From the NCBI GenBank assembly GCA_020444245.1, contig JAHLLI010000002.1, positions 124,001 through 188,000 of the forward strand: a DNA stretch of 64,000 bases, read 5' to 3'. The notes beneath the pieces are model-generated. The model had not been told where the DNA came from. It worked only from the letters and a program-made list of their open reading frames with translations, and did no database searches. The position numbers and the translations under genes were made by a program. Of this stretch, positions 54,829-63,774 are shown in pieces (position 1 is the stretch's first letter; every line of letters begins with the position of its first letter). The stretch is from Actinomycetales bacterium (GTDB taxonomy: Bacteria > Actinomycetota > Actinomycetes > Actinomycetales > Cellulomonadaceae).

Positions 54829-55884
54829 TCAGGCCGACTCGCGCACGACGAGCTCGACCGGCAGCACGAGGTGGGGGTCGGAGGCCGGCCCGGGCAGCCC
54901 CGGCAGGGGCGGCAGCTCCAGGTCGGGCCTGGCGCGTGCCATGAGGAGGCGCACCATGGCCCGGCCCTGGAGCACGGTCTGCTGGCGGACGGTGGTCAAG
55001 GGCGGGAAGGCCGACGCGGCGACCTGGATGTCGTCGAACCCGACGACGGCGACGTCCTCCGGGACCCGGCGCCCGGCCTGGTGGAGCGCCTGGAACGCGC
55101 CGAGGGCCATGAGGTCCGAGGCCGCGAACAGGCCGTCGACGTCCGGTGCGTCGGCCAGGAGCCGCCGCGCGGCCTCCATGCCGGACTGCTGGGTGAACTC
55201 GCCGTGCACCACGAGATCCGGGCGGAAGGCCTCGCCGAGCTCGGACCTGAAGCCCTCGAGCCGGTCGATGCCCGCGGACATGTCCTGGGGGCCGGTGATC
55301 GTGCCGATCCGTCGGCGGCCGATCTCGACCAGCCGGCGCGCCGCCAGGCGGCCTCCGGTCACGTTGTCGTTGTCCACGTAGGCGACGCCGAGGCTCTCGT
55401 CGAACGGGCGACCGCCGATCACGACAGGGATGCCTGCCTGGATCAGGGCGCCCGGCAGCGGGTCGTAGGTCTCGTGCTGGGAGATCAGCAGGACGCCGTC
55501 GACGGCCCCGGAGCGCACGTACCGCTCGGCCCGGTCGAGCTCGTCCGGGTCCTGCGGCATGAAGAGCACCAGCTGCATCCCGGCAGCGCTCGCCTCCAGC
55601 GTCGACCCGCGGACGATGCGGCTGAAGAACGGATCGCCGAACACCCGCGCGTCGGACTCCGAGGCGACCAGGGCCAGCGTGTCGGTGCGCTTGCTCACCA
55701 GGGCTCGCGCGCTGAGGTTCGGCTGGTACCCGAGCTCGCGAACCGCCTGGTCGACGCGGGCCGCGATGGCCGCGTCGACCGTGGGCGTGCCGTTGACCAC
55801 GCGCGACACCGTGGCCCGCGACACGCCCGCACGTGCGGCGACGTCCTCCAGGCTGGGGCGCTTGGGACGTGCCGACGCGGGCAT
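54829..55884 (-). CDS. LacI-family repressor of the beta-glucan regulon
   Basis: A 351-residue LacI/GalR regulator. The helix-turn-helix SLEDVAARAGVSRATVSRVV with NGTPTVD starts near residue 11 and the hinge NLSARALVSK follows. The sugar-binding domain shows TDTLALVASESDARVFGDPF, DGLFAASDLMALGAFQALHQ and VAVVGFDDI. It lies between the permease operon and the divergent phosphorylase gene, with operator copies near all three. Induction by an imported glucan oligosaccharide is inferred from family behaviour. ATG 55884 follows AGAGAGG. Confidence 0.93.
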   Translation of the reverse strand: MPASARPKRPSLEDVAARAGVSRATVSRVVNGTPTVDAAIAARVDQAVRELGYQPNLSARALVSKRTDTLALVASESDARVFGDPFFSRIVRGSTLEASAAGMQLVLFMPQDPDELDRAERYVRSGAVDGVLLISQHETYDPLPGALIQAGIPVVIGGRPFDESLGVAYVDNDNVTGGRLAARRLVEIGRRRIGTITGPQDMSAGIDRLEGFRSELGEAFRPDLVVHGEFTQQSGMEAARRLLADAPDVDGLFAASDLMALGAFQALHQAGRRVPEDVAVVGFDDIQVAASAFPPLTTVRQQTVLQGRAMVRLLMARARPDLELPPLPGLPGPASDPHLVLPVELVVRESA

Positions 55885-56137: not shown

Positions 56138-59100
56138 ATGATCTCGCCGACCGCTGCTCCTTCACGGGCCGTCGAACACACCGTCGTCGACGGCACGACG
56201 CTGGGCCTCGACGACCGGCGCTACTACGCGATCCCGGCCTACGACCGCCTGCCGCCCTTCCTCATGACACTCGTCGGAGCCAGCGACCTCTGGCTGTTCG
56301 TCTCGAGCACCGGCGGGCTCACGGCCGGCCGCCGGGACGCCGACCGCGCGGTGTTCCCCTACTACACCGAGGACAAGGTCGCCGAGGGTGCGGGGCGCAC
56401 CGGTGGGCTCACCGAGCTGCGCGTGCACCGGCCGGACGGCACCTCGATCTGGTGGCGGCCGTTCGCGGAGGTGCGCCCGGGCGACGCCCCGGTCGCCCGC
56501 ACCCTCTACAAGGACCTCCTGGGCACCGCGCTCGTGTTCGAGGAGACACGCGCCGACCTCGGGCTGCGCTTCCGCGTGGCCTGGCAGACCAGCGCCCGCT
56601 ACGGCGTGGTGCGCACCTGCCAGCTCGGCTCCACCGTCGAGCACCCGACGGTCGTCCGGCTGCTGGACGGGTTCCGCAACCTCCTGCCCGCCGGAGCGAC
56701 CGCTCAGGTCCAGAACGAGCTCAGCATCCTGCTGGACGCGTACAAGCGAGCCGAGGTCGACGCGCGCACGGGCCTGGGCCTGTACTACCTGAGCTCGACC
56801 CTGACCGACCTGGCCGAGGCGAGCGAGTCGCTGCAAACGTCGGTCGCATGGCAGGTCGGGCTGACCGGGGTCCGCCACCTGGTGTCGGACCGTCAGCTCA
56901 CCGCCGTCAGGTCGGGCGAGCAGGCGCGTCCCGAGGTGCACGTGCGCGGGGAACGAGGTTCCTACCTCGTCGAGACCGAGCTGACGCTCGAGGCGCGCGA
57001 GTCCCGCAGCTGGCGCACGGTGGCCGATGTGGGGCTCTCCGCGGCGGACGTCGTGGCGCTGCGCGGGGAGCTCGAAGCGCCGGGCATCCTCGCCGCCCGG
57101 CTGGACGACGACATCGAGTCGACCCGGCGCGGCCTCGAGGTGCTGATCGGCGCGGCCGACGCCGCCCAGCTCACCGGCGACGAGCTCGCCGCGGCGCACC
57201 ACGGTGCGAACGTCCTGTTCAACTCGATGCGGGGCGGCGTCCCAGTCGACGGCTACCGGCTCCGGGCCGACGACATCCGGTCGTTCGTGCGCACGCGGAG
57301 CCCGCGCACCTCGCAGCGGTGCGCCGAGCAGCTCGCGGCGCTGCCTGCGGACCTGACCCACGAGGACCTGATGGCCGCCGCCGAGTCCGCGGGGGACGAC
57401 GACCTGTGGCGGCTGTGCCGGGAGTACCTGCCGTTGACCTTCAGCCGCCGGCACGGCGACCCGAGCCGGCCCTGGAACGCCTTCCGGATCGCGCTGCGCG
57501 ACGCCGACGGCCGGCCGAGCCTGGACTACCAGGGCAACTGGCGCGACATCTTCCAGAACTGGGAGGCGCTGGCCTGGTCCTTCCCCGAGTACGTCGAGTC
57601 GATGGTCGCGGTGTTCGTCGACGCCACGACCGCCGACGGCTACAACCCGTACCGGATCTCGCGTGACGGGGTGGACTGGGAGGTCCCGGAGCCGGAGAAC
57701 CCGTGGGCCAACATCGGCTACTGGAGCGACCACCAGCTGGTCTACCTCGCCAAGCTGCTGGAGACGTCCGAGCGGTTCCACCCCGGTCGGCTGAACCGAC
57801 TGACGAACCGCACCGCGTTCACGCACGCCGACGTGCCGTACCGGATCGCGTCCTACGCCCGGACCGTCGAGGACCCGTCCTCGACGATCACGTTCGACGA
57901 GGAGGCCGCGGCGGCGATCGCGCGCCGCGTCGCGGACGAGGGCTCGGACGGCAAGCTGGTGCACGGCCCGGACGGCGACCTCGTGCGGGTCACGCTCGGC
58001 GAGAAGCTCCTCGTGCTGATGCTCGCGAAGGTCGTGAACCTCGTCCCCGAGGGCGGCATCTGGATGAACACCCAGCGCCCCGAGTGGAACGACGCCAACA
58101 ACGCGCTGGTCGGGCGCGGGCTCTCCGTCGTCACGCTGGCGTACCTGCGCCGGTACCTCGGCGTCGTGCGCCCGTTGCTCGACCAGGACGTGGAGGTCGG
58201 TGTCGAGGTCGCCCGTCTCCTCACCCAGGTCGCCGACATCCTCGAACGGCACGCCGCGGGCACCGTCGACGGCTTCGACGACGTCGAGCGGCGGCGCGTG
58301 GTGGACGCACTCGGTGCAGCCGGGACCGCCTACCGCGGCGACGTCTACCGCGGTGTCACCGGTGAGTGCGTCACGGTCGCGCGCGAGGAGATCCGCCGGG
58401 CCATCGACGTGGTGCTGACGTACGTCGAGTCGGGTCTGCGCGCCAACCGTCGGGCGGACGGGCTCTACCACTCCTACAACGTCCTGCAGCTCGGCGAGGG
58501 GCGTCTGACGATCCGGCGGCTGCAGGAGATGCTCGAGGGGCAGGTCGCCGTGCTCTCCTCCGGGCTGCTCACGCCCGCCGAGTCGCTGGGCGTCCTGAGG
58601 GCGCTGCGGGGCAGTGCCCTGTACCGGGCGGACCAGAACAGCTACATGCTCTACCCGGACCGTGACCTGCCGGGATTCCTCGAGAAGAACGTGCTCAGTC
58701 CCGAGCAGGTGGCGCGGTGCCCCCTGATCGACGCCCTCGTGCGGGAGGGGGACCGGTCGGTCGTCGTGCGCGACGTCGCCGGTGGCCACCACTTCGCTCC
58801 CTCGATCCACAACGCCCGCGACGTCGTCGGCGCGCTGGAGCGACGGCAGCGCAGGGCGCAGGCCGAGGGTGAGGGCGCCGTGGCGACGCTCGTCGAGGCC
58901 GGCCGGGACTCGCTCCTGGAGGTCTTCGAGGAGGTGTTCCGGCACTCGGAGTTCACCGGGCGGTCGGGCTCGTTCTTCGCCTACGAGGGCCTGGGCAGCA
59001 TCTACTGGCACATGGTCTCCAAGCTCCTGCTCGCCGCGCAGGAGGCGCTGGAGCTGGCGATCGCCGAGGGCGTCGACGCCGGCGCGGTCGACGCGCTGCG

Positions 59101-59599
59101 CGACGCCTACGAGGACGTGCGCCAGGGGCTGGGCTACTGCAAGACGCCGGAGGTCTACGGGGCGTTCCCCGTCGATCCCTACTCGCACACGCCCGGCGGG
59201 AAGGGTGCGCGCCAGCCGGGCATGACGGGACAGGTCAAGGAGGAGGTCCTCACGCGCGCCGGGGAGCTCGGGCTGCGGGTGGAGGACGGCGCGATCTGCT
59301 TCCGGCCGGTCCTGCTGCGCGCGCAGGAGTGGACCTCGGCCCCGGCGGTGTTCCGTTTCGTCGACGTCGCCGGGCGTGACCGCGGCCTCGACCTCCCGGC
59401 GGGGAGTCTGGCCTTCACGTTCTGCCAGGTGCCCGTCGTCTACGAGCGCGGGGACCGGGCGGCGGTCAGGGTGCGGATGGCCGACGGCTCGCAGACCGGG
59501 TACGACGGTGCCGCGCTCCCGGTCGAGGTGAGCGCCGAGGTGTTCCGTCGTTCCGGTCGGGTGGCCGAGATCCACGTCACGGTGACGCCCTCGGAGTAG
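56138..59599 (+). CDS. Putative beta-1,3-oligoglucan phosphorylase related to clan GH-Q (GH94/GH149/GH161)
   Basis: A 1153-residue cytoplasmic enzyme with no signal peptide. An N-terminal beta-sandwich (~1-290) is followed by a helical domain containing GNWRDIFQNWEALAWSFPEY (~470-490), TTADGYNPYRISRDGVDWEV, GYWSDHQLVYLAKLLE and the motif E649-W-N-D652-A-N-N. A C-terminal domain has NSYMLYPDRDLPGFL, EGLGSIYWHMVSKLL and KTPEVYGAFPVDPYSHTPG. The length and the WND region resemble large GH94-related phosphorylases (GH149, GH161). The secreted GH16 laminarinase-type gene next door supports beta-1,3-glucan phosphorolysis. The exact family is an inference. ATG 56138 has GAGGAGAA. Confidence 0.7.
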   Translation: MISPTAAPSRAVEHTVVDGTTLGLDDRRYYAIPAYDRLPPFLMTLVGASDLWLFVSSTGGLTAGRRDADRAVFPYYTEDKVAEGAGRTGGLTELRVHRPDGTSIWWRPFAEVRPGDAPVARTLYKDLLGTALVFEETRADLGLRFRVAWQTSARYGVVRTCQLGSTVEHPTVVRLLDGFRNLLPAGATAQVQNELSILLDAYKRAEVDARTGLGLYYLSSTLTDLAEASESLQTSVAWQVGLTGVRHLVSDRQLTAVRSGEQARPEVHVRGERGSYLVETELTLEARESRSWRTVADVGLSAADVVALRGELEAPGILAARLDDDIESTRRGLEVLIGAADAAQLTGDELAAAHHGANVLFNSMRGGVPVDGYRLRADDIRSFVRTRSPRTSQRCAEQLAALPADLTHEDLMAAAESAGDDDLWRLCREYLPLTFSRRHGDPSRPWNAFRIALRDADGRPSLDYQGNWRDIFQNWEALAWSFPEYVESMVAVFVDATTADGYNPYRISRDGVDWEVPEPENPWANIGYWSDHQLVYLAKLLETSERFHPGRLNRLTNRTAFTHADVPYRIASYARTVEDPSSTITFDEEAAAAIARRVADEGSDGKLVHGPDGDLVRVTLGEKLLVLMLAKVVNLVPEGGIWMNTQRPEWNDANNALVGRGLSVVTLAYLRRYLGVVRPLLDQDVEVGVEVARLLTQVADILERHAAGTVDGFDDVERRRVVDALGAAGTAYRGDVYRGVTGECVTVAREEIRRAIDVVLTYVESGLRANRRADGLYHSYNVLQLGEGRLTIRRLQEMLEGQVAVLSSGLLTPAESLGVLRALRGSALYRADQNSYMLYPDRDLPGFLEKNVLSPEQVARCPLIDALVREGDRSVVVRDVAGGHHFAPSIHNARDVVGALERRQRRAQAEGEGAVATLVEAGRDSLLEVFEEVFRHSEFTGRSGSFFAYEGLGSIYWHMVSKLLLAAQEALELAIAEGVDAGAVDALRDAYEDVRQGLGYCKTPEVYGAFPVDPYSHTPGGKGARQPGMTGQVKEEVLTRAGELGLRVEDGAICFRPVLLRAQEWTSAPAVFRFVDVAGRDRGLDLPAGSLAFTFCQVPVVYERGDRAAVRVRMADGSQTGYDGAALPVEVSAEVFRRSGRVAEIHVTVTPSE

Positions 59600-59721: not shown

Positions 59722-62700
59722 ATGCGCTCCTACCGCCCCCGGAACGCAGCCCGCGTGGTGGCTGCAGCGGCGACCGCGATGGCCACCGCCGCCCTCGCGC
59801 TCGTCGGGACGGCCCCGGCCGTCGCCGCTCCGGCACCGCCGGTGCTCGTCGTCGACGACTTCGAGTACGCGTCCGGCCTGCCCAGCGGCGCCGACGCGAA
59901 CGGGATCCCGATCGGCTTCTACACGTTCGCCGGCGGCGGCGCGACCATCTCCCTGGACAACCCCGGAACGCCGCCGACCCCGCCGCTCGCGGCGAACCCG
60001 GCGCCCAACAAGGCCCTCCAGATCGACATCGACTCGCCGTCCTACGCGGGCGTCATCCACGCCTTCGAGAACGACACCGCTGACACCTGGGTCACCCAGG
60101 ACTGGAGCGAGTACGCGGGCTTCACGATGTGGCTCTACGGCCAGGGGACGAACAGCAACCTCTTCATCGACCTGCTGGAGAACCGGAAGCCGGGTTCGAC
60201 CACGGACGACGCCCAGCGCTGGACCGTCACCTTCACCGACGACTTCACCGGCTGGAAGCAGCTCGAGTTCCCCTTCGCCGACTTCACCCAGAAGTCCGTC
60301 GGCAACAACGCGCCGACCGACGGGTTCGAGCGCTACGAGATGCACGGCTGGGCCTTCGGCGCGGTGGACACCGGTGGCCCGCAGACGTACTACGTCGACG
60401 ACGTCGGTGTGTACGGCGTCGCGCCGGTGGCCCCGCTGGCGGTCACCTTCACCAGCGCGAGCTACGACGTCGCCGAGGGCACGACCGGTGACATCACCGT
60501 CAAGCTGAACCGTCCGCTGCGCGACGAGGACCCGGACGAGGTCTCCGTCGCCTACGCGACCCAGCCCGGCACCGCGGTCGCCGGGCGGGAGTACACACCC
60601 ACCTCCGGCACCCTCACCTTCGCCAAGGGCGGGCCGCGCGAGCTGTCCTTCCCGCTCCGGACGTTCGACGACACGAAGTACGAGGGTGACGAGCACGTCG
60701 TCCTCCAGCTGTCCGACCCGGCCCCGAGCGGGGGACTGAACCCGGGCTTCACGATGCGGGCGGCCGCCACGATCAAGGACGACGACCCGTACGACCCGCT
60801 CCTGCTGGACGACTTCGAGTCCGCGCCCGCGCTGTGGCACGCCGGGAGCGGCGTCACGCTCAGCAACCCGGAGATCGCCGCCGGCAGCCCGGACGCCGTC
60901 CCCGGCCAGGGCGCCTACGAGCACGTGCTCCGGGCGGACACGCCGGTCCTCGTGACCATCGACGTCAAGGGCCGGGTGTGCAACAAGGGCAACGGCGTGA
61001 TCCCGGTCGTGCTGCTCAGCACCCCGGACTTCGACGCCACCACCGTGGACCCCGCCACCGTCATGTTCGGCGACGCCCACGAGGCCCACACGGTCAAGGG
61101 CGTCGCCGCCAAGCACGTGGCCGACGTGAACCACGACGGCCGCAAGGACCTGGTGTTCCACTTCCGGTTCAAGGACACCGGGTTCGCGTGTGGCGCGACG
61201 GTCACCCCGTTCACCGGTGAGACCTACGACGGGACCGCGATCACGAACGGCGGTCCCGCGGCGAGCTTCGGGCGGGACTTCGCCCTCGGTCAGGACTGGA
61301 CGGGCAAGGACGCCTTGAGCTTCTGGTACTTCGGCCAGGGCACCGGCGAGACGGTCGACGTCGACCTGCTCGACAACCGTGCGCCCGACCCCGGCCCGGA
61401 CGGTTGGGACCTGGCCTGGTCCGACGAGTTCGACACCCCTGCCGGCACCGCGCCCGACCCCACCAAGTGGGGCTACGAGCTGGGCGACGGCACGGCGAAC
61501 GGGAACCCGGGGTGGGGCAACAGCGAGCTGCAGTACTACACCGACAGCACGGACAACGCCGCCACCGACGGCGACGGCAACCTGGTGATCACCACCCGGC
61601 CCGCCGACGGCTCCCTCCAGTGCTACTACGGCCCGTGCGAGTACACCTCGGCGCGGCTGCTCTCGGCGAGCAAGGCCGAGTTCGCCTACGGGCGCATCGA
61701 GTCCCGCATCCAGCTCCCCGCCGGCGAGGACGGCCTCTGGCCGGCGTTCTGGAGCCTGGGGACCGACATCAACCGGGTCGGATGGCCGCAGACCGGCGAG
61801 ATCGACGTCATGGAGTACGTCAGCCGGATCCCGGACAGGGTCTTCGGCACCATCCACGGCCCGGGCTACTCCGGCGGTGAGTCGTTCGGGGACATCCTCG
61901 ACGTGCCCGACTTGACGGCCGGGTACCACACCTACGCGATCGAGTGGGAGCCCGACCTGATCACCTGGTACGTCGACGACGTCCCGTACTTCACGGCGAA
62001 CCCGGCCGACGTGGCGCCGAACGCGTGGGTGTTCAACGACCCGGTGTTCCTGCTGCTCAACATGGCGATCGGCGGCAACTTCGGCGGGGCGGTCAGCGAC
62101 CAGCTCACCTTCCCGCAGTCGATGAAGGTCGACTACGTCCGCGTCTACCAGGGCCCGGACACCGCGGAGCGCTTCCAGGCCCCGTTCGTCGACGACTTCA
62201 CCGGCTGGAAGAAGATCACCGTCCCGTTCTCCGACTTCACCCGCAGCGCGACGCAGCCGGCCGGCGCGCCCGATGACGGGCTGGGTCTCGACCAGGTCTG
62301 GGGCTACGGCTTCACCCTGCCGGCCGGTGGCTCCACGACCGGTGCCGTCCTGCTCGACCAGGTGCGCCTGGTCGACACCACGGCGCCGACCGTGACCATC
62401 ACGGACGACGTGGACGGCGACGTGGCGACCGGTGACGTCACGTTCACCTTCGCCTTCAGCGAGGACGTCGGCACGAGCTTCACCAAGGACGACGTCGCCC
62501 TGACCGGTGGCACCAAGGGCGCGTTCACCCGGGTCGACGCGACGCACGCCACGCTCGTGGCCAAGCCGCCGGCCGACGCGACGGGGACCCTCGAGGTCAG
62601 CGTCGCCGCCGGGGCCTTCACGGATCTCGCCGGCAACCCGAGCACGTCCGCGGCCACCGCGCAGCAGGCCTACGACACGCCGCCGCTGCCGGGTGGCGGG

Positions 62701-63672
62701 TTCGTCATCTCGTTCGACGAGGCGACGGCGCCGGTGCTGACGGGGTTCGGTGGGGCGGAGGACTCGCAGGTGGTGGTCGACCCGACCGACGCGGCGAACA
62801 AGGTCGCCAGGGTGGTCAAGGCCGACGGTGCGCAGGTCTGGGCGGGTACCACGGTGTCGACCGAGCCGGGTCTGACGGTCCCGGCGATCCCGTTCGCGGC
62901 CGGTGCCACGGTCATGACGGCGCGGGTGTGGTCGCCGGACGCGGGCATCCCGGTCCGGCTGAAGGTCGAGAACTCGGCGGTCGGGTCGACGTCGGTGGAG
63001 ACCGAGGCCACCACGACGGTCGCCGGGGGGTGGGAGACGTTGACCTTCGACTTCGCCGACCAGGTCGCCGGCACCCCGGCGCTGGACCTGGCCGCGACCT
63101 ACGACAGGGTCTCGATCTTCTTCGACTTCGGCACGGCCGGCAGCGGGAAGACCTACTACCTCGACGACCTCACCTGGCCGGCGCCCACCTTCGCGATCTC
63201 GTTCGACGAGGCGACGGCGCCGGTGCTGACGGGGTTCGGTGGGGCGGAGGACTCGCAGGTGGTGGTCGACCCGACCGACGCGGCGAACAAGGTCGCCAGG
63301 GTGGTCAAGGCCGACGGTGCGCAGGTCTGGGCGGGTACCACGGTGTCGACCGAGCCGGGTCTGACGGTCCCGGCGATCCCGTTCGCGGCCGGTGCCACGG
63401 TCATGACGGCGCGGGTGTGGTCGCCGGACGCGGGCATCCCGGTCCGGCTGAAGGTCGAGAACTCGGCGGTCGGGTCGACGTCGGTGGAGACCGAGGCCAC
63501 CACGACGGTCGCCGGGGGGTGGGAGACGTTGACCTTCGACTTCGCCGACCAGGTCGCCGGCACCCCGGCGCTGGACCTGGCCGCGACCTACGACAGGGTC
63601 TCGATCTTCTTCGACTTCGGCACGGCCGGCAGCGGGAAGACCTACTACCTCGACGACCTCACCTGGCCGTAG
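59722..63672 (+). CDS. Secreted multidomain GH16 laminarinase-type endo-beta-1,3-glucanase
   Basis: A 1316-residue secreted protein. The signal peptide is cleaved near AVAA (~36). The order is: a CIA30/CBM-like beta-sandwich (~40-234), a Calx-beta domain (~239-356), and a second copy of that sandwich (~357-883) interrupted twice. The first interruption is a DVNHDGRKDL-containing module (~411-510), the second the GH16 catalytic domain (~560-811). Then come a bacterial Ig-like domain (~884-985) and two identical C-terminal beta-sandwich modules (996-1153 and 1159-1316). The catalytic motif GEIDVMEY gives E693 as nucleophile and E698 as acid/base, the laminarinase type. ATG 59722 follows GAGAGGGAAGC. 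Confidence 0.9.
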   Translation: MRSYRPRNAARVVAAAATAMATAALALVGTAPAVAAPAPPVLVVDDFEYASGLPSGADANGIPIGFYTFAGGGATISLDNPGTPPTPPLAANPAPNKALQIDIDSPSYAGVIHAFENDTADTWVTQDWSEYAGFTMWLYGQGTNSNLFIDLLENRKPGSTTDDAQRWTVTFTDDFTGWKQLEFPFADFTQKSVGNNAPTDGFERYEMHGWAFGAVDTGGPQTYYVDDVGVYGVAPVAPLAVTFTSASYDVAEGTTGDITVKLNRPLRDEDPDEVSVAYATQPGTAVAGREYTPTSGTLTFAKGGPRELSFPLRTFDDTKYEGDEHVVLQLSDPAPSGGLNPGFTMRAAATIKDDDPYDPLLLDDFESAPALWHAGSGVTLSNPEIAAGSPDAVPGQGAYEHVLRADTPVLVTIDVKGRVCNKGNGVIPVVLLSTPDFDATTVDPATVMFGDAHEAHTVKGVAAKHVADVNHDGRKDLVFHFRFKDTGFACGATVTPFTGETYDGTAITNGGPAASFGRDFALGQDWTGKDALSFWYFGQGTGETVDVDLLDNRAPDPGPDGWDLAWSDEFDTPAGTAPDPTKWGYELGDGTANGNPGWGNSELQYYTDSTDNAATDGDGNLVITTRPADGSLQCYYGPCEYTSARLLSASKAEFAYGRIESRIQLPAGEDGLWPAFWSLGTDINRVGWPQTGEIDVMEYVSRIPDRVFGTIHGPGYSGGESFGDILDVPDLTAGYHTYAIEWEPDLITWYVDDVPYFTANPADVAPNAWVFNDPVFLLLNMAIGGNFGGAVSDQLTFPQSMKVDYVRVYQGPDTAERFQAPFVDDFTGWKKITVPFSDFTRSATQPAGAPDDGLGLDQVWGYGFTLPAGGSTTGAVLLDQVRLVDTTAPTVTITDDVDGDVATGDVTFTFAFSEDVGTSFTKDDVALTGGTKGAFTRVDATHATLVAKPPADATGTLEVSVAAGAFTDLAGNPSTSAATAQQAYDTPPLPGGGFVISFDEATAPVLTGFGGAEDSQVVVDPTDAANKVARVVKADGAQVWAGTTVSTEPGLTVPAIPFAAGATVMTARVWSPDAGIPVRLKVENSAVGSTSVETEATTTVAGGWETLTFDFADQVAGTPALDLAATYDRVSIFFDFGTAGSGKTYYLDDLTWPAPTFAISFDEATAPVLTGFGGAEDSQVVVDPTDAANKVARVVKADGAQVWAGTTVSTEPGLTVPAIPFAAGATVMTARVWSPDAGIPVRLKVENSAVGSTSVETEATTTVAGGWETLTFDFADQVAGTPALDLAATYDRVSIFFDFGTAGSGKTYYLDDLTWP
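62707..63180 (+). repeat. First copy of a 474-bp perfect tandem repeat in the GH16 gene
   Basis: The copy matches 63196-63669 with no difference that I can see by reading. The period is 489 bases (163 codons), in frame, with a 15-base linker. Each copy codes a 158-residue module opening ISFDEATAPVLTGFGGAEDS and ending YYLDDLTWP. Confidence 0.9.
63196..63669 (+). repeat. Second copy of the 474-bp perfect tandem repeat
   Basis: It is an exact in-frame duplicate of 62707-63180, ending at the stop codon. The lack of silent differences indicates a recent duplication or ongoing gene conversion. Confidence 0.9.
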
Positions 63673-63774
63673 GAGCTGCCGGGGGCGGACGGCGCAGGGC
63701 CGGCGGCACGGTCTCTCATGCGGCGCACATGACTGCCACAGGGGCCGGCCAGGCCGTGTGACGACGGTGGCCCC

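Follow-up and report, generated by a model that had tools for sequence, protein, structure and literature searches.

Can a whole catalytic domain sit in a loop of a carbohydrate-binding module (CBM), and is such an arrangement an accident of one gene or a conserved architecture? The question is raised by a gene in the window, that is, the whole stretch of 64,000 nucleotides from an Actinomycetales bacterium (Cellulomonadaceae) that was analysed. The gene (59722..63672, + strand) reads as the earlier note had quoted it and encodes a secreted multi-module protein of 1316 aa; a GTG codon in frame, 108 bases upstream of 59722, is a possible alternative start. We propose, with a probability of about 80%, that the GH16 domain of a secreted multi-module endo-beta-1,3-glucanase is nested in a loop of a CBM11-like host module (site B), that host and enzyme form one body, that another loop of the host (site A) is an optional port, and that the oligosaccharides pass through an ABC transporter to a GH149 phosphorylase.

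The split CBM11-like module

The protein starts with a probable Sec signal peptide, judged by eye from the sequence (residues 1-35, ...APAVAA; 59722..59826, +). It is followed by an intact CBM11-like module (residues 40-234; 59839..60423, +) with a Pfam CBM_11 match and an AlphaFold2 model of pTM 0.84. The closest solved fold of this model is CBM11 (1v0a/6r31, TM 0.66-0.76); its fold matches also include the CIA30/NDUFAF1 type (7zkq/7zkp), and there is a Pfam CIA30 match as well. After a Calx-beta domain (residues 240-355; 60439..60786, +; Pfam 2.9e-13) comes the second, nested copy. It consists of an N arm (residues 357-405; 60790..60936, +), a DxNxDGxxD module without a Pfam family at site A (residues 406-511; 60937..61254, +), a mid arm (residues 512-558; 61255..61395, +), the GH16 domain at site B (residues 560-810; 61399..62151, +) and a C arm (residues 811-884; 62152..62373, +). 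The protein ends with a bacterial Ig-like domain Big_12 (residues 885-980; 62374..62661, +; Pfam 9.4e-10) and two near-identical modules starting at residues 994 and 1157 (62701..63669, +), of a type that many laminarinase-like proteins combine with GH16. At the DNA level (62701-63678) the pair shares 300 nt at 99% identity with a spacing of 489 bases, and the encoded proteins are about 99% identical; the two appear to stem from a recent tandem duplication.

The GH16 domain (Pfam 3.7e-21) is nearest to solved beta-1,3-glucanases (2hyk, E 1.6e-69), and its jelly-roll fold matches 2hyk with a TMt of 0.91. The catalytic E, D and E of the ExDxxE motif are invariant in 36 rows; in the window they are E693, D695 and E698 of GEIDVMEYV (residues 692-700; 61795..61821, +). 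The protein is predicted from its sequence to be a secreted endo-beta-1,3-glucanase of the laminarinase type, its substrate being a storage and wall sugar of algae or fungi.

The earlier note had claimed that this GH16 domain splits the second CBM copy and that a module with DVNHDGRKDL is inserted earlier in the same copy. The quoted junctions match: the intact module reads FIDLLENR-KPGSTTDD-AQRWTVTFTDDFTGWKQLEF, and the second copy reads DVDLLDNR-APDPGPDGW, then the GH16 domain, then VYQGPDT-AERFQAPFVDDFTGWKKITV. We aligned the intact module (residues 40-234) with the spliced arms (357-410, 511-558 and 811-883), as had been suggested. The local alignment score was 209, and 500 shuffles gave 36.6 +/- 6.3 with a maximum of 63. 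Of the single arms, the mid arm scored 87, the C arm 119 and the N arm, a weak match by itself, 39 (shuffled mean 27.5); the order and register of the N arm are right in all relatives. Identical residues occupied 65 of the 166 aligned positions (39%), and strand or non-strand states agreed at 141 of them (85%), the predicted strands corresponding one for one. Pfam CBM_11 was found in two stretches (4.1e-31, above the cut-off), and the second, a partial match to profile positions 107-180 in the C arm, begins right after GH16. It is confirmed that residues 357-405, 512-558 and 811-884 make up one CBM11-like beta-sandwich, interrupted twice, and the segment boundaries first proposed were right to within a few residues. 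In the numbering of the intact module (1 = residue 40), GH16 occupies the loop between strands 107-114 and 126-133, and at site A the insert stands in place of the hairpin that joins strands 60-64 and 70-75. The DVNHDGRKDL module does separate the N arm from the mid arm; a related protein, L032, has no such module at this place.

The structure prediction that the earlier note had called for agrees with the alignment. The AlphaFold2 model of residues 357-884 has a pTM of 0.69, and its host arms are confident (block means of pLDDT 73-84 for the N arm, 81-95 for the mid arm and about 88-95 for the C arm); the folding alignment drew on the window and related loci, with five rows behind the arms. 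The site A module, which had no homologues in that alignment, reached a pLDDT of mostly 34-49. Intact modules were left out of the folding alignment; in a joint alignment with the nested proteins they aligned to GH16. The contact between the arms and the orientation of the domains are inferred. A fold search with the whole nested model found mainly GH16, as expected because the host is discontinuous. Independently, the profile of the nested family matches residues 111-167 of CtCBM11 through the C arm (E 1.7e-5).

Distribution and ancestry of the nested GH16 domain

The search covered about 85,000 species' genomes plus relatives, a sample rather than an exhaustive set. It turned out that 19 proteins, including that of the window, are nested, and they come from Actinomycetota and Chloroflexota. 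The order N arm, mid arm, GH16, C arm is found in an Actinomycetota MAG (L032, the closest relative, 67% identical to the window's protein in the nested region), in three Chloroflexota proteins (L033, L034 and L037) and in five of 18 congeners (L003-L007). A further family of the phylum, f32, contributes five genomes with nesting (L155-L159). Sampling of the phylum of the L033 lineage added four nested proteins (L249-L252), which brings the genomes sampled with the Anaerolineae/Oscillochloris lineage that have a nested protein to seven. One of the four, L252, has little but a signal peptide apart from the nested unit, and it carries no other CBM. In all 19 nested proteins, site B holds GH16. 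A CBM_11 survey of the phylum, in which only 10 of 387 genomes had CBM_11, revealed no other catalytic domain split into a CBM11-like module.

To describe the host in these relatives we used a profile of 187 positions built from 23 intact modules. In all of the 15 nested proteins tested first, the arms cover it in order (N about 20-60, mid about 79-113, the latter also in the window, and C 117-185), and the spliced sequences score 52-104 bits. A single continuous profile match spans the N and mid arms of L249 (33-112) and of L250 (23-108), and the remaining profile (115-180 and 117-170, respectively) resumes about 260-275 residues downstream. The nesting is conserved. With the inserts spliced out, the host sequence lacks no part and keeps its order. 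The double insertion had been presented in the earlier note as unusual: both insertions are real and the nesting of GH16 is no oddity of a single gene, with the second insert confined to four of the 19 nested proteins.

In a tree with 35 free GH16 domains, the GH16 domains nested in the first 15 proteins lie on one side of a branch. The support for this branch is modest (77/62; 78% of bootstrap trees), and since it parts all of these nested domains from the free ones, a single origin of the nested GH16 is likely. Within the tree, the window's gene groups with genes of another family of the phylum and of Chloroflexota (97/87) and not with those of its five congeners. The GH149 gene beside it encodes a protein 67-83% identical to the GH149 of the congeners. 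This discrepancy makes a transfer or replacement of the window's nested gene likely.

Role of the host module and of site A

The linkers that join GH16 to the host are short and near constant: 15-18 residues separate the host strand from the GH16 DEF motif, and about five follow GH16. In the nested proteins the latter linker is mostly VYQ/VEQ-(A/G)PDTAERF. Such linkers favour a stiff unit and fit a rigid coupling of GH16 to the host, in which, as the earlier note had supposed, a binding face might be kept beside the active site. The termini of a GH16 jelly roll are close together, which would let it fit a host loop on two short linkers, and enzyme and accessory domain would then move as one body. 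This could keep the cleft aligned with a bound glucan chain, or the catalytic domain may simply be braced by the host.

Both inserted loops are, as we assume, near the CtCBM11 binding cleft (D51/Y53 and D99), and the enzyme would therefore sit at the cleft end of the host. In a by-eye alignment, the C arm lacks R126, D128, Y129, D146, S147, H149 and Y152, which we take to be ligand contacts of CtCBM11. Since most of these presumed contacts are not kept, the host may bind a different glucan or be a mere brace; its sugar binding is uncertain. One tyrosine (Y151 in the numbering of that paper) lies in the CtCBM11 cleft (PMC5686792). The missing contacts of the C arm, together with the non-binding CIA30/NDUFAF1 type among the nearest folds, speak for a host that binds no sugar at all and serves as a structural chassis that stabilises GH16 and spaces it from neighbouring modules, the binding being left to the intact and C-terminal modules. 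However, L252 would then have no binder. The invariant residues of the host look core-like and fit either view. We give this explanation a substantial chance, somewhat short of even.

According to the proposed reading, site A, another loop between strands of the host sandwich, may act as an optional port. In 15 of the 19 nested proteins this loop is empty or short; in three it contains the DxNxDGxxD module and in one, three SLH repeats. The module of the window is also found at site A in L155 (57% identical) and L157 (34%). It belongs to a widespread family of about 100 aa with an invariant D-G-x-x-D core, which no Pfam model covers, and its DxNxDGxxD motif appears to be of the calcium type. 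The consensus of the family is VIPVxxLSxxxFDATTVDPxTV...DxNxDGxxDLxxxF (window 60937-61254; L126, L202-L214), and a GH13-like protein (L124/L126; GH13 assigned by sequence) also ends in such a module.

The three SLH repeats (Pfam 3.9e-31) are in L156 (G437:C494). L156 and its sister protein L155 share 42 of 52 residues in the N arm and 329 of 382 (about 86%) in everything after site A, and their inserts are unrelated. The source genomes of the two are fragmented assemblies, 84-92% complete, and the SLH occupant was seen in one protein. The position of the SLH triplet, inside a CBM11-like sandwich beside a nested GH16, makes it an internal rather than a terminal putative cell-wall anchor. SLH repeats are known to act as anchors, and by their family the triplet of L156 would tether the enzyme to the cell wall.

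It is quite conceivable, though we lean to the other side, that the site A inserts are neutral passengers in a tolerant loop, with no role. The loop is vacant or short in most of the proteins, even in the closest relative, L032; against this, related modules occupy the same place in three proteins, a sister protein has SLH repeats there, and anchoring is an established role of such repeats. A further-reaching idea, which we regard as rather doubtful, is a chassis with two ports, of which one always holds the enzyme and the other swaps among close relatives between nothing, a calcium-type module and an SLH anchor. If this were true, evolution would retarget or anchor the enzyme and leave both protein ends untouched. 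It is very improbable that the flanking arms are two separate, truncated half-modules which a duplication left behind and which do not form a common fold, as the partial Pfam match after GH16 might suggest, because the arms give every strand once and in order, the model is confident on both sides of GH16, and 19 proteins of two phyla, including the near-minimal L252, retain the arrangement.

The locus and comparison with known systems

The gene directly upstream encodes a GH149 beta-1,3-oligoglucan phosphorylase (56138..59599, +; 6hq6, E 1e-296), which goes unmatched by Pfam up to an E of 0.01, though it is similar over its full length to the solved 6hq6. A LacI-type regulator of the locus, assigned by Pfam, lies at 54829..55884 on the - strand, and an ABC permease sequence is found near the nested gene, upstream of GH149. 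In two distantly related genomes from another family of the phylum (G428 and G419), GH149 and a similar permease also adjoin the nested gene. Within the genus, the nested gene is present in five of six genomes with GH149 and in one of 13 without it (Fisher p 0.003, not corrected for relatedness). This neighbourhood and co-occurrence indicate the use of beta-1,3-glucan, and the nested enzyme likely takes part by depolymerising it. Judging from the families, the chain would run from secreted endo-cleavage through import to phosphorolysis: oligosaccharides would enter via the neighbouring ABC transporter and then be split by the GH149 phosphorylase.

Of the known systems, BoPDA of Bacteroides ovatus, in which a CE4 domain is inserted in a CBM beta-sandwich (PMC11713874), is alike in that a carbohydrate-active catalytic domain splits a CBM sandwich in sequence. 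As in that protein, stretches of the host sandwich flank the inserted domain, here GH16, on either side. BoPDA differs in its catalytic family and host, has one insertion only and is a capsule biosynthesis lipoprotein unique to Bacteroides. In BcWH2_GH26, with its internal CBM112, a CBM and a catalytic domain are likewise nested and not serial, but the topology is opposite, the CBM lying inside the catalytic domain; internal CBMs also occur in GH10, GH13 and GH148, and deletion of the internal CBM of GH26 left the kinetics unchanged (PMC13357471).

CtCBM11 of Lic26A-Cel5E from C. thermocellum (1v0a, 6r31), the solved structure closest in fold to the intact module and matched by the nested C arm at the profile level, is uninterrupted, and its presumed ligand residues are mostly absent in the nested host. 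The GH16 laminarinases 2hyk, 3atg and 3azx are 45-50% identical to the catalytic domain in fold alignment, but their solved chains are lone catalytic domains. Among the best 60 of 71 PDB matches to the nested profile, no chain matched both its GH16 and its CBM11 parts. Secreted GH3-like proteins from the family and genus of the window (L117-L121; GH3 assigned by sequence) have similar kinds of accessory modules, but their two CBM11-like modules are intact and in tandem. A full-text search of mostly open-access literature found neither GH16 inside CBM11 nor one CBM sandwich with two ports.

With site A empty, holding a module or holding an SLH triplet, a natural series is on hand, and the question why nature nests CBMs and enzymes becomes directly testable. 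Nature also supplies here a pattern by which enzymes and anchors could be plugged into a single scaffold. The usual picture of CBMs is that of beads strung alongside the enzyme; in contrast, the accessory domain described here carries the enzyme within its own fold, and this nesting has persisted across two phyla.
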